Assembly (NCBI RefSeq): GCF_000011385.1
Contig: NC_005125.1
Span: 620,001 to 684,000 of the forward strand
Direction: 5' to 3'
Source: Gloeobacter violaceus PCC 7421
GTDB lineage: Bacteria > Cyanobacteriota > Cyanobacteriia > Gloeobacterales > Gloeobacteraceae
DNA length: 64,000 nt
The translations under genes and the position numbers were made by a program. The notes beneath the pieces are model-generated. The model saw only the letters and a list, made by a program, of their open reading frames with translations, was not told the DNA's origin and did no database searches. Shown piece by piece: positions 4,914 to 9,782 of this stretch. Within the stretch, counting starts at the first letter, position 1. The number at the start of each line of letters is the position of its first letter.

Positions 4914-7901
4914 TCACAGGTTGGCCACCCGCACCCGCATCGCTTCCACCCGCTGTTCGAGAGCCTTGAGAAGCTGCAAAAATTCGCTGTCGCTGTGCAG
5001 CGAAGCGAAAACCGGCTCCCGCCGCAAAAAGCGGTAATGACAGTAGCCCTCGTCCACGGCCGCGCGCAGCCAGCGCAGGGCTTCGTCGCGCTTACCCTGC
5101 ACCGCGTAGACCGCCGCGAGGTCGAAGCGATAAAACGAATCTTCGTTGCCCCGGGCGATCGCCGCCTTGTCGAGCTTCAAACTGCGCTCAAGCAGAGCCT
5201 TTGCCTCGGTGCGCCGGCTATCGCGCCAGGCGAGCTCACCCAGCACCGTCGTCGGCAGCAGATAGCCCGTGCCGGCCAGCAAATCGCCGGATCCCTGAAG
5301 AATGCGCCGATAATAAGCACGGGCCTGGGACCGGTTCCCCGCGAAGCGTTCGACATCCCCGGCGGCGTATAGACCCGACAACTGCCGCGGTTCGGCTTCG
5401 ATCAGTCGTCGGGCGGTTTGTCTGGCCGCCTCAAAGTTGCCGTTCAGCAAATAAAACTGGCTCCACTTCCAGAGGGCGTAGGCGTCGTCGGGTCGAAGCG
5501 TAACCGCCGCTTCGAGGGCCTGACGCGCCCGGGCGTCGTCGCCCAAAATCGTAAAAAAATCGCCCAAGTTAGTCTGCAGGGGCGTGCTGAGCGGATCGAG
5601 GGCGACCGCCCTGAGGGTCCAGTTCACACCCTCCTCCAATTCGCAGCGGATGAAATTGACCGAACCGTAGCTTCCCAGGGCGGCGGCGTTGTTGGGGGCC
5701 AGGGCGATGGCCCGGCGGTAGGCATCTTGGGCCTTGCGAAAAAAACCCTTGCCGCGCAGACCGTTACCCAGGGCGCGGTGCGCCTCTCCAAGCTGCGGGT
5801 CGATGGCGAGGGCCTTGCGGCTGGCCCCCAGGGACGCCTCCAGCCAGACATCGCCCTGGCTGTAATCGACCGCCTTGCGAAAGTAGGCGTTACCCAAGGC
5901 GGCGTGGGCGAGGGCGTAATTCGGTTCGAGCGCCAGTGCCCGCTTGAACAGTTCGATGGCCAGGTCGTTTTCGGCGTTGCGGCCGCGCTCGAAGTACTCG
6001 CGCCCCTTGAGGTAGTAGTCGTAGGCGGTGATATTGCCGGTGGGTGTCTGGGTGACACGCTCTTTTTCGGCCGGCGACAGTTTTGCCTGCAATCGGCCGG
6101 CAATCTGCTGCGCCACGTCCTCTTGAATCTTAAATACATCGCTCAGTTGTCGGTCGTAATCTCCGGACCACAGCTGCTCGCCGGTGGCGGGGTCGACGAG
6201 TTGACTGACGATGCGCACTTTGTTGCCCTCGCGGCGCACACTGCCGGTCAGCACGCTGCTGACTCCCAGCTCCCGGGCGATTTCACCGAGGCTTTTGGGG
6301 CTCTCGGCGTACTGGGCGGCGGCGGAGCTGGCGATCACCTTCAAGTCGGCAATCTTGCCCAGTTGATTGGTAATATCCACGGCCATCCCGGCGCTAAAGT
6401 AGGCGCTTTGTTTGTCGCCGCCCAGATTGACGAAGGGCAACACCGCAATTGCGTGGTTCGGAGGATTCGACAGCAGGCGCACGAAGGGATTGGCCGCCCA
6501 AAATAGTCCGGCAAGCAACCCCAGTTCCAACAGCACCGTCCCTACCGCCAGTCTCCGCCGCCGCCCGGAGGCGCGCGGCGCCTCGGCAAGCCCGTAGATC
6601 ATCATTCCAGCCAAAAGAGCGAGTCCGGCGGCGGCGAACCACCCGGGTCCGGCAAGCAGACTGCGGGCGGTCAGTTCGTTGGCCACCCAAAAGGCGGCGC
6701 CATTGAGCGCCACCACCGCCACCGCCCGTGCGAGCGCGCCTGCGGGCCAGGGGCGCATCCCCGTCCGCTCGGCTCCATCCAGGTAGCGGCGCACCTCCGT
6801 GAGCAGCTCACCCACCGTCGCGTAGCGCCGGTCGAGTGGTTTGCTAAGTGACCGGAGCACGATGCGGTCGAGGGCACCTTCCAATTGGCGGCTCAGGCCC
6901 TGTGCGCCGCCCTCGGCGGCTGCCGGGGCAAACGCCCGGGTGGGCTGCTCGCCCACCGCCCGGCTCGGCAGTAGTGCTGTCTGATCGCTCAGAGTCCAGG
7001 CCAATTCGTAACTGGCCGCCGCCTGGGCTCCCGCCGGCCGCTGACCGGTGATCAGTTCGTACAGCACCACCCCGAGGGCGTACACATCGCTTGCCGGGGT
7101 CAATTCGGCCCCGGCAATCTGCTCGGGCGAGGCGTAGCGCGGCGTGAGCACCCGCAGATCGGTGCGGGTCGGCTCGGAGGATCGCCCCTGGGGGTCGAGC
7201 AGCTTGGCGATCCCAAAATCGAGCAAGCGCGGCTCGCCTTCGCAGTTGACCAGGATGTTGCTCGGTTTGAGGTCGCGGTGAATGACCCGGCAGGTGTGGG
7301 CGTACTGCACCGCCTGGCAGACTTTGGAAAATAGTTCCAGGCGCGGTCTCAAGCCGAGCTGCTGAGCTTCGCAATAGCGATCGATGGGCATGCCGTCGAC
7401 AAATTCCATCACCAGATAGGGCACCCCCGCCTCGGTGCTGCCGCCGTCGATCAGCCTGGCGATATAGGGATGTTCCAGATTGGCCAGGATCTGCCTTTCG
7501 CTCAAAAAGCGGCCCACCTGCAGCGCTGCTGCCCAACCGGTCTGCAACACCTTGATACAGACTTGTTTTTGGAACTGACCGTCGGCGCGCTCGGCCAGAA
7601 ATACCACCCCCATGCCGCCTCGCCCCAACTCGCGCACCACCCGATAGGCCCCCAGGCGTTGACCGGCGCGCAGCGGAGCACCCACCGGTACTGCCTCATC
7701 TGCGAGCCCGGCGAGCAAACTCAACATTGGCGCGCTCAAAAAATCGGGCTGCTGCTCGTGGATAGTGAGCAACTGGTCGATAAATCGGCGCTGTTCCGCT
7801 TCGAGCTTACAGCCATCGAGAAAGGCAAGCCGTTCGGCTCCCTGGTAGTCCAGGGCATCCCCGAGAATTTCGCTCAGCTGTTGCCACTGCTCGGGCGTCA
7901 T
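4914..7901 (-). CDS. Ser/Thr protein kinase fused to a FlgO/TolB-N-like domain and TPR repeats
   Basis: I place the start at ATG 7901 (995 residues); codons upstream add a non-conserved tail. The kinase domain spans about residues 85-375: glycine loop GRGGMG at 93-98, lysine at 117, HRDLKPSN with the catalytic Asp at 210, and DFG at 228-230. Two hydrophobic segments follow near residues 390-465. Then comes a domain opening with IAVLPFVNLGGDKQSAYFS, the FlgO/TolB-N-like module seen after adenylate cyclases and kinases, and containing a GSVRREGNKVRIVSQLVD strand. The rest is a chain of TPR helices. This PknB-plus-TPR architecture suggests a membrane-anchored signalling kinase that uses the C-terminal half as an interaction or sensing platform. 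Its targets are unknown. Confidence 0.9.
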   Translation of the reverse strand: MTPEQWQQLSEILGDALDYQGAERLAFLDGCKLEAEQRRFIDQLLTIHEQQPDFLSAPMLSLLAGLADEAVPVGAPLRAGQRLGAYRVVRELGRGGMGVVFLAERADGQFQKQVCIKVLQTGWAAALQVGRFLSERQILANLEHPYIARLIDGGSTEAGVPYLVMEFVDGMPIDRYCEAQQLGLRPRLELFSKVCQAVQYAHTCRVIHRDLKPSNILVNCEGEPRLLDFGIAKLLDPQGRSSEPTRTDLRVLTPRYASPEQIAGAELTPASDVYALGVVLYELITGQRPAGAQAAASYELAWTLSDQTALLPSRAVGEQPTRAFAPAAAEGGAQGLSRQLEGALDRIVLRSLSKPLDRRYATVGELLTEVRRYLDGAERTGMRPWPAGALARAVAVVALNGAAFWVANELTARSLLAGPGWFAAAGLALLAGMMIYGLAEAPRASGRRRRLAVGTVLLELGLLAGLFWAANPFVRLLSNPPNHAIAVLPFVNLGGDKQSAYFSAGMAVDITNQLGKIADLKVIASSAAAQYAESPKSLGEIARELGVSSVLTGSVRREGNKVRIVSQLVDPATGEQLWSGDYDRQLSDVFKIQEDVAQQIAGRLQAKLSPAEKERVTQTPTGNITAYDYYLKGREYFERGRNAENDLAIELFKRALALEPNYALAHAALGNAYFRKAVDYSQGDVWLEASLGASRKALAIDPQLGEAHRALGNGLRGKGFFRKAQDAYRRAIALAPNNAAALGSYGSVNFIRCELEEGVNWTLRAVALDPLSTPLQTNLGDFFTILGDDARARQALEAAVTLRPDDAYALWKWSQFYLLNGNFEAARQTARRLIEAEPRQLSGLYAAGDVERFAGNRSQARAYYRRILQGSGDLLAGTGYLLPTTVLGELAWRDSRRTEAKALLERSLKLDKAAIARGNEDSFYRFDLAAVYAVQGKRDEALRWLRAAVDEGYCHYRFLRREPVFASLHSDSEFLQLLKALEQRVEAMRVRVANL

Positions 7902-8296
7902 GGCTCGGGCTCTGTAGGTAGGCGACGGCGAACGGACAGACTTGTCGGGAGGGGATGGAAACCGCAATGCGGCACCCGCCGAGCAAAGACCTGCGCTGGA
8001 CTATGCACAGTGTATCCGTTGATGCAAAGCACTCGCCAGACCTCCCTATCATCCATCGGGAAGGACCTTGCGCATCCAGCGTGTGATTGGCTTGAGAGAC
8101 ATCGGCCGTTAACGACCGGAATATCCGACAGGAGCGTGCCGAAGTCGGGCTCGTTCATAAGCGTGGTCACTGCCACCGTCGCCGCGGGCGAGGACCCCGG
8201 CTTGCCCCTCGGACAGGTCTGGCAACAGACAGGGTGTCCCCCTGCTCCCGCCGCCGCCAACCGCCGAAGAGACTTTGAGCTCGGTCATAAACTAGA
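7902..8296. other. non-coding stretch between the kinase gene and tRNA-Leu
   Basis: No open frame here shows protein-like composition or a usable ribosome site on either strand. It must hold the promoter of the kinase gene, but I could not pick out a convincing -35/-10 pair. Confidence 0.5.
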
Positions 8297-8377
8297 TGCG
8301 GACGGGGAGATTCGAACTCCCACGGGTTGCCCCACAGGTTCCTAAGACCGGCGTGTCTACCATTCCACCACGTCCGC
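8297..8377 (-). tRNA. tRNA-Leu (anticodon TAG)
   Basis: On the minus strand the acceptor arms GCGGACG and CGTCCGC pair over 7 bases with discriminator A at 8297. The D-arm reads GTGGAATGGTAGACAC, the anticodon loop is CTTAGGA (anticodon TAG, reading CTA), and there is a long class II variable arm with a GGGGCAACCC stem-loop. The T-arm contains GTTCGAATC. The CCA end is not encoded. One pair in the anticodon stem (C-T) looks mismatched. Confidence 0.93.
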
Positions 8378-8434
8378 ACGTTCTATCAGTTTGACATCCT
8401 CCCCGGCCTCAAGGCACGGGAATTCCTTCCTGCT

Positions 8435-9667
8435 TCACTGGCCCGGTATTCCGGTGGCCTCCACAGGCTTCTTGACGGCGTATCCCGCCGCCGCAACCAG
8501 GGTCGGGGCCGTTCTCCCAACGGCCCGAGTTGCCCCAACGACCCCCAGACCACGCTGCAAGAGCACTTGGGCGGCTGCCACGTCGCGGTCTGTCGTGTAT
8601 CCACACGCCAGGCACTCGTGTACCCGAACACTCAAGTCTTTCTTGCCCGTATGCACGCCGCACTGCGGGCAGGTCTGGCTCGTACCTTTGGGGTCCACCC
8701 TGGCAAAGAAGACACCGCGCTTGCGGCAGGTCCATTCCAGCGTCGAGAGAAACATCCCCTATCCGGCATCAAGGACGTGTTTGGCCAGCATCGATGCCGC
8801 CAGGGCCTGGCAACCCAAATCTTCCGCGAAGATCGTCCCTGCTCTGTCGCACAGACGATGGGCCGGCTGACGGTGAAACTCTTTGCGCAGATTACCGATG
8901 CGCTCGTGTAGTCGAGCTACTTTTTGTTGTACTTTCCTCCAATTATTGGACCCGCGCTTTTTGCGCGATACCCGGCGTTGCAGCAATTTCAGCTTGCTTT
9001 GGGCATCGACAAAAAACTTGGGCCGGTGGACAAGTTCGCCGTCCGAGAAGGCCGCGAAATGGTGCAACCCCAGATCGATACCGATCGCCTCGCCGTGGGG
9101 TTGGGCCTCGCTCAATGCGGCATCCGACTGAATCGCCATCACCGCGTACCAGCCGGAAGCGCGTCTGAGCACTCTCACCTGCTTGACCCGAAAACCCTCG
9201 GGGATGCTTCGAGACAGGCGCATCCTCACATAGCCGATGGTGGGCACCTTCAAGCGCTCGCCGCGTACCGGAGCGCTCGCAAACTGCGGAAAACAGATAG
9301 AACGCAATCGGCCGGGCTTCTTGAATCTGGGAAAGCCCAAACCACCTTCGCGCATTGAGATGAACGCCTTCTCCAACTGCTGGAGTACCTGTTGCAACAC
9401 CTGGGAGTGGACAGCCTGAAGGTGAGGGTTGTGCTTTCTGGCTAGGGTGAGAGCTTTGCACTGGCGGGCATAGGTGGGCCAGGGTGCATCGGCAGCAATG
9501 ATGAATTCCGAACGTATCGAACAAGCATTGAGCGGAGCCTTGCGAGAGTTAATCCAGTCTTTGCGCTCGGCCAGCACAAAGTTCCAGACGCGCCGAGAAG
9601 TCTCAAACCAGCATTGCAGTGTGCTGGCCTGCTCAGTGGTCGGCTCCAATCGATACTTGAAGTTCAT
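8435..9667 (-). pseudogene. tnpB: tnpB, RNA-guided nuclease of IS605 type, interrupted by an in-frame TAG
   Basis: Reading from ATG 9667 gives MNFKYRLEPT and then the usual TnpB order: helix-rich N-terminal part, RuvC-I in GIDLGLHHFAA, RuvC-II glutamate in IFAEDLG, a four-Cys zinc finger (CPQCG and CLACG) and the RuvC-III aspartate in DRDVAAAQ. A single TAG at 8759-8761 interrupts the frame after HVLDAG; the codons after it (GMFLSTLEW) continue in the same frame. Relatives have a tryptophan-like codon at this place, so TGG to TAG is the simplest explanation. The stop cuts off the zinc finger and the last catalytic residue. The downstream part could restart at ATG 8755 but could not be active alone. 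TTG or ATG codons slightly upstream (9673) are alternative starts. Confidence 0.85.
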
Positions 9668-9725
9668 CAGCATCGTGGGATTACAGCATTTCTTAGAAAG
9701 CAATAAAGCTATTCTAAGCTCATGA

Positions 9726-9750
9726 AAGCCGCCCTCGAAGGGCGGGGCTT
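9726..9750 (-). repeat. left-end hairpin of the TnpB element
   Basis: An imperfect palindrome with arms AAGCC/GGCTT and GCCC/GGGC around TTCG, with a bulged CC. Bulged hairpins like this are the subterminal recognition structures of IS200/IS605 elements. It lies about 60 bp upstream of the tnpB start and just beyond the stop codon of the next gene. Confidence 0.65.
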
Positions 9751-9782
9751 TAAACCCATTCCCAGGGGTAAAAGCCTCACCC

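Follow-up and report, generated by a model that had tools for sequence, protein, structure and literature searches.

A single amber codon interrupts the tnpB of an orphan IS200/IS605 element in Gloeobacter violaceus PCC 7421

Introduction

What has become of a transposon nuclease gene whose frame is complete except for one stop codon in its interior? A tnpB frame in the genome of Gloeobacter violaceus PCC 7421 raises this question. The genome is a single contig of 4,659,019 bases with a completeness of 99.96, and the stretch analysed here, referred to as the window, comprises its positions 620001-684000 (64,000 nucleotides). The initial annotation of the window reported an amber codon between RuvC-II and the zinc finger of an otherwise intact TnpB, and proposed a very recent loss, readthrough or a sequence error as explanations. 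Decaying elements have been described before: a Halanaerobium study reports progressed stages of decay as well as elements that had initially been annotated as pseudogenes (PMC7290912). A literature search on TnpB stops, TnpB splits, TldR and Gloeobacter, covering titles and the beginnings of abstracts, returned no paper on this locus or on a comparable TnpB that is naturally split; one paper containing the words "split tnpB" concerns a plasmid (PMC6737455).

Results

One stop in an otherwise intact tnpB frame

Translated on the minus strand, 8435-9667 gives 410 codons. The only internal stop is a TAG at codon 303, and there is no frameshift (Table 1). The amber codon and its coordinates in the initial annotation are thus correct, and its statement that the frame is otherwise intact also holds, with D198, E282, D362 and the four zinc-finger cysteines all present. 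Upstream of the stop the frame matches HTH_OrfB_IS605 and OrfB_IS605, and downstream of it the zinc-finger domain Cas12f1-like_TNB, each over its Pfam cut-off. Read through the stop, it reaches 281 bits with the NCBIfam model guided_TnpB, whose cut-off is 100, and matches the solved TnpB structure PDB 8bf8 with an E value of 1.8e-32. The read-through frame therefore carries the domains, the D/E/D triad and the CxxC-CxxC arrangement of a TnpB, but no single open reading frame encodes the entire protein; because of the TAG at codon 303, we class it as an interrupted tnpB, not a working TnpB.

Table 1. Features of the interrupted tnpB, its element and the adjoining tRNA gene (window coordinates)
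Feature	Coordinates	Strand	Basis
tnpB frame (410 codons including an internal stop)	8435..9667	-	translation, homology, Pfam, NCBIfam
TAG stop, codon 303 (W/F/L/H in homologues)	8759..8761	-	alignment
Upstream open segment, 302 aa (HTH, RuvC-I, RuvC-II)	8762..9667	-	Pfam
Downstream open segment, 106 aa starting at ATG codon 305 (zinc finger, RuvC-III)	8435..8755	-	Pfam
RuvC-I Asp, D198	9074..9076	-	alignment; motif GIDLGL at 196
RuvC-II Glu, E282	8822..8824	-	alignment; motif AEDLG at 281
Zinc finger C333, C336, C352, C355	8603..8671	-	CPQC 333-336, CLAC 352-355
RuvC-III Asp, D362	8582..8584	-	alignment; motif TTDRD at 358
IS200/IS605 element, IS608-like ends; left end 9767, right-end TCAA 8391-8394	8391..9767	-	relatives, empty site
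TTAC at left junction, likely target / transposon-adjacent motif	9768..9771	-	relatives' left ends
Left-end hairpin	9728..9748	-	inverted repeat read by eye
Right-end hairpin, end of presumed omega RNA	8400..8421	-	pairing in relatives
Presumed guide, adjoining the right end and running into the 5' end of tRNA-Leu	8371..8390	-	analogy
tRNA-Leu, anticodon TAG (leucine codons, not amber)	8295..8378	-	tRNA annotation

The closest relative found is the TnpB of ES-bin-141, a Gloeobacterales MAG (JACMIX010000323.1; L005, the same locus as L077), with 70-73% amino acid identity: tblastn aligns it with the frame at 70% over codons 1-407, and another comparison gives 73% over codons 1-380. Since this homology of 70% to an open relative runs along codons 1-407, chance does not explain the frame, which is genuine both before and after the stop. 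At the DNA level, the two elements are 74% identical across about 1,200 bases and have the right end GGATGTCAA in common. The ES-bin-141 tnpB is open, with tryptophan at codon 303 and glycine at 305, whereas the window copy has TAG and Met305; the left junction reads CTAC in ES-bin-141 and TTAC in the window element. A search for a closer copy, which could date the stop, yielded none: by DNA, ES-bin-141 (G005) passed E 1e-30 among 388 genomes of the class, and the one other match at this threshold, in G293, spans 246 bases. In a search of genome contigs (21 loci), ES-bin-141 alone exceeded 40%; six viral loci reached 26-36%, and five plasmid records gave partial matches, none covering more than 18% of the element.

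Codon 303 is a sense codon in the other homologues examined. TnpB matches at E 1e-10 were obtained at 96 loci, of which 93 span codon 303, three of them being the window itself. The other 90 have tryptophan (48), phenylalanine (30), leucine (8) or histidine (4) and no stop; the corresponding counts for 81 distinct homologous sequences are 41, 28, 8 and 4, again with no stop, some distant loci having been retrieved with a query peptide that contained the codon-303 tryptophan. A codon alignment of 16 homologues shows ten tryptophans, all TGG, four phenylalanines, two histidines and no stop. The motif around the stop, DAG-stop-GMF, aligns with DAGWGEF in PDB 8bf8 and 8h1j.

Interrupted tnpB copies in the genome and the class

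Three TnpB zinc-finger matches occur in the source genome: the window tnpB, an open one (L145), and a fragment (L144) that matches codons 194-375 only and carries a stop. A whole-genome search found no second full-length copy of the tnpB, so the comparison with other copies that the initial annotation proposed has no counterpart for codon 303 in this genome. The L145 tnpB (1268-2635) lies about 50 bases from a tRNA-Arg(CCT) gene (2683-2755), and two of the three tnpB places in the genome adjoin tRNA genes. Two short remnants elsewhere in the genome lack codon 303: L029 1331-1600 (G000:C1:192963-193232) retains a left and a right end, and L142 1562-1639 (G000:C1:77961-78038) a right end alone. 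Both are remnants of a sister element; they retain the right end, the presumed omega RNA, at 90-91% identity and have identical sequence beyond the hairpin in common.

We also surveyed 291 genomes of the class, 176 of them with a match, scoring at most six candidates per genome. Among the matches listed, 9 of 150 tnpB candidates, counted by hand, contain an in-frame stop. Three of these stops are interior, namely the window stop at codon 303, one in G132 at codon 20 and one in G025 at codon 165; the others, again among the matches listed, lie in the tail (four copies in G237 at codon 402, and two in G103 at codon 380, beyond the catalytic part). The G237 stop at 402 is probably the natural end there; a fifth G237 copy also stops at that codon. 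In G007, which belongs to the same order, L006 1437-2617 and L030 1437-2506 both shift frame near codon 168-172, a change that may reflect shared decay or a frameshift, and L030 also has two stops, at codons 20 and 92. With stops and frameshifts in other copies of the class, broken tnpB copies are a regular sight.

These counts bear on the possibility that the TAG is a sequencing or assembly error and that the organism has a sense codon and an intact TnpB. Such an error would look identical to a recent nonsense mutation: a single base distinguishes codon 303 from the TGG that the closest relative has there, the remainder of the frame is intact, and a single assembly of the genome is the basis of the call. 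However, the assembly is one contig with near-total completeness, finished genomes have low error rates, and interior single stops are also present in the tnpB of two other genomes among the matches listed, so that nothing unusual has to be invoked for a genuine mutation. We consider an error unlikely.

Possible readthrough of the TAG

Programmed or suppressor readthrough would restore a full-length protein from a frame that is open on both sides of the stop. Omega downstream of the stop is low (0.035-0.047) and neutrality is rejected there, as readthrough would have it, although this mostly reflects the time before the stop arose. Against it, no anticodon CTA, TTA or TCA is present among the 44 tRNA genes found with the Rfam tRNA model and read with ARAGORN, a set from which tRNAs outside the model would be missed, and none of the homologues examined has a stop at codon 303. 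The adjoining tRNA-Leu was considered as an amber suppressor and rejected, its anticodon TAG reading leucine codons. The locus thus shows neither a suppressor tRNA among the 44 nor a conserved stop, the marks of a recoded gene, and we know of no case of readthrough in TnpB. The readthrough proposed in the initial annotation is accordingly extremely unlikely.

Possible restart downstream of the stop

In the sequence TAG GGG ATG, three bases separate the stop from an in-frame ATG, which raises the possibility of a two-piece TnpB: translation would end at the TAG and restart at codon 305, and the resulting chains of 302 and 106 residues would together form an RNA-guided nuclease. Both halves retain their domains and catalytic residues. 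In the predicted model, which is of moderate confidence (mean pLDDT 71.2, pTM 0.49), codon 303 begins helix 303-317, and the break falls between this helix and helix 295-301. None of the 16 closer homologues has Met305, which makes the start, like the stop, particular to the window copy. The coincidence is nonetheless mild, because an in-frame ATG follows within two codons at 10 of the 410 codons, and it was noticed after the fact. The ATG lacks a Shine-Dalgarno sequence (-3.3 kcal/mol, with 43% of positions as good); the start of tnpB itself also lacks one (-1.1). None of the examined homologues is split at codon 303, and Met305 is common in distant TnpBs, partly since the search peptide included that stretch. 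Taken together, a functional two-piece TnpB is very unlikely, though somewhat less so than readthrough.

The element and its insertion site

The boundaries of the element, 9767-8391 on the minus strand, were set by the TTAC directly before its left end and the TCAA at its right end. IS608 inserts 3' of TTAC and has the right end TCAA. TTAC also precedes the left end of L006, L030 and L029, with CTAC in L005, TCAC in L014 and TGAC in L018. The right end GGATGTCAA is found in the window element, L005, L006, L030 and L007; L010 has GGATGTCAC and L046 GGATATCAG, and both remnants differ. Pairing of the right-end hairpin is kept with different letters in the window element, L029, L142 and L005, and is harder to make out in L046 and L033. 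The fold of the 180-nt right end is not significant (z -1.28; 19 of 200 shuffles equally good). No Rfam match reaches its cut-off at the element (Cyano-2, 15.2 bits versus a cut-off of 40), whereas Rfam does reach cut-off at the adjoining tRNA.

A search of the genome for Y1_Tnp returned no match at E 0.001. With no Y1 transposase found in the element or the genome, the element is an orphan tnpB element. TTAC, TCAA, subterminal hairpins and an empty site in relatives, the features that mark IS608-like elements, are all present, and judged by its sequence this is an orphan IS200/IS605 element with tnpB only and IS608-like ends.

The empty site, TTAC/ACTG before tRNA-Leu, is preserved in three genomes of the same genus (G001, G002 and G003). 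G001 and G003 read TTAC followed by ACTGG, and G002 does likewise with more divergence further on; in the source genome, ACTGA directly follows the right end. There, the ancestral TTAC/ACTG junction is split: its tRNA side lies at the right end of the element (8390/8391), and its left part, ending in TTAC, is now 2 Mb away, near G000:C1:2666929. This own-genome copy of the left flank aligns with G003 and G001 to the base just before the tRNA-side match. From these alignments, the rearrangement breakpoint appears to be exactly the left junction of the element (9767/9768), as would be expected if two copies had recombined or a transposase had acted there. The gene at 4914-7967 looks kinase-like by eye, and its flank in G001 matches window positions 7900-8323. 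This match takes in 29 bases of the tRNA-Leu 3' end (8295-8323), where ARAGORN detects no tRNA in G001, and is perhaps the trace of an integration event.

The 20 bases next to the right end presumably occupy the place of a guide, by analogy with TnpB systems, and run into the tRNA-Leu gene. This arrangement calls to mind a TldR-like domestication, in which the stop would be the inactivating step towards a nuclease-dead RNA-guided regulator; TldRs are reported to have arisen by repeated loss of nuclease function in TnpB (PMC13418256). However, the RuvC residues are kept in the frame here, and the truncation is present in no other homologue examined. A TldR is marked by an inactivated RuvC in a conserved clade; here the triad is kept, and no clade of truncated tnpB was found among the homologues examined. 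No TTAC+guide target was found elsewhere in the genome at up to three mismatches, the two hits being the right junction of the element itself and a TTGCCCTG site, which two relatives have as well. The presumed guide is simply the insertion flank, and domestication is, like readthrough, a highly improbable account of the locus.

Age of the stop and selection on the frame

The age of the stop was estimated over 378 codons, with kappa 2 assumed. If neutral divergence is 0.05 per site, 2.1 further stops are expected and the probability of finding none is 0.117; if it is 0.08, the values are 3.4 and 0.032. Because the frame contains no further stop, neutral divergence since the loss is at most about 0.07 per site, an upper bound.

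Branch models depend on the base frequencies used, and their omega values are rough, since synonymous sites are near saturation. With pooled frequencies, the window branch shows an omega of 0.43 versus 0.053 (2dlnL 14.4); for codons 1-302 it is not distinguishable from 1, the effect being strongest before the stop. As a control, we set the open relative as foreground, which gave an omega of 0.28 (2dlnL 9.8), and of 0.35 for codons 1-302 (2dlnL 9.3). With the frequencies of the two GC-rich sequences, the rise is gone (branch omega 0.104 versus 0.108). Relaxed selection along the whole branch was therefore rejected as an artefact of base composition: the open relative rises too, and matched frequencies abolish the effect. 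With matched frequencies, neutrality is rejected for all 378 codons (2dlnL 11.2), for codons 1-302 (5.6) and for codons 304-378 (10.0). Rejection in both parts of the frame indicates that constraint acted for most of the branch and that the stop arose late. At 87 sites that are otherwise invariant, the window copy departs at four, all before the stop, the second highest number of 17 sequences; the 16 others depart at 0-7 of these sites, and the ES-bin-141 relative at none. These departures may be a mild hint of a longer relaxation.

Discussion

Collectively, our findings point to a recent nonsense mutation at codon 303 in the tnpB of an orphan element, a gene that nothing maintains, and we regard this as very probably the correct reading of the locus. 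Recent loss is also the best supported of the three explanations in the initial annotation: there is one stop and no frameshift, the catalytic residues are kept, relatives are open and no transposase was found. Translation would end after 302 residues, and the product is predicted to keep RuvC-I and RuvC-II but to be without the zinc finger and RuvC-III, so it is predicted to be unable to cut DNA. With neither a transposase found nor any sign that the host uses it, tnpB would have nothing to maintain it and would stand at the beginning of its decay.

The locus may thus capture the state of a transposon nuclease gene shortly after its inactivation, in a genome without a detected transposase. 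In practical terms, this reading guards against annotating the locus as a pair of genes or as a functional nuclease. The locus matters little in itself; it would matter more if the two halves were made and worked together, as a natural split TnpB.

Three known systems set the window tnpB in context. It shares the RuvC triad and the zinc finger with ISDra2 TnpB (PDB 8bf8, 8ex9, 8exa and 8h1j), whose DAGWG motif aligns at the stop, but ISDra2 TnpB is uninterrupted, and the ISDra2 element carries TnpA. With IS608, the element shares insertion at TTAC and the right-end TCAA, yet here no tnpA was found and tnpB is interrupted. TldRs, finally, resemble the window tnpB in being TnpB relatives that should not cut DNA, which for the window copy is a prediction; in TldRs, RuvC is reported to be inactivated, and many have new partner genes (PMC13418256), whereas the window tnpB has kept its RuvC residues.
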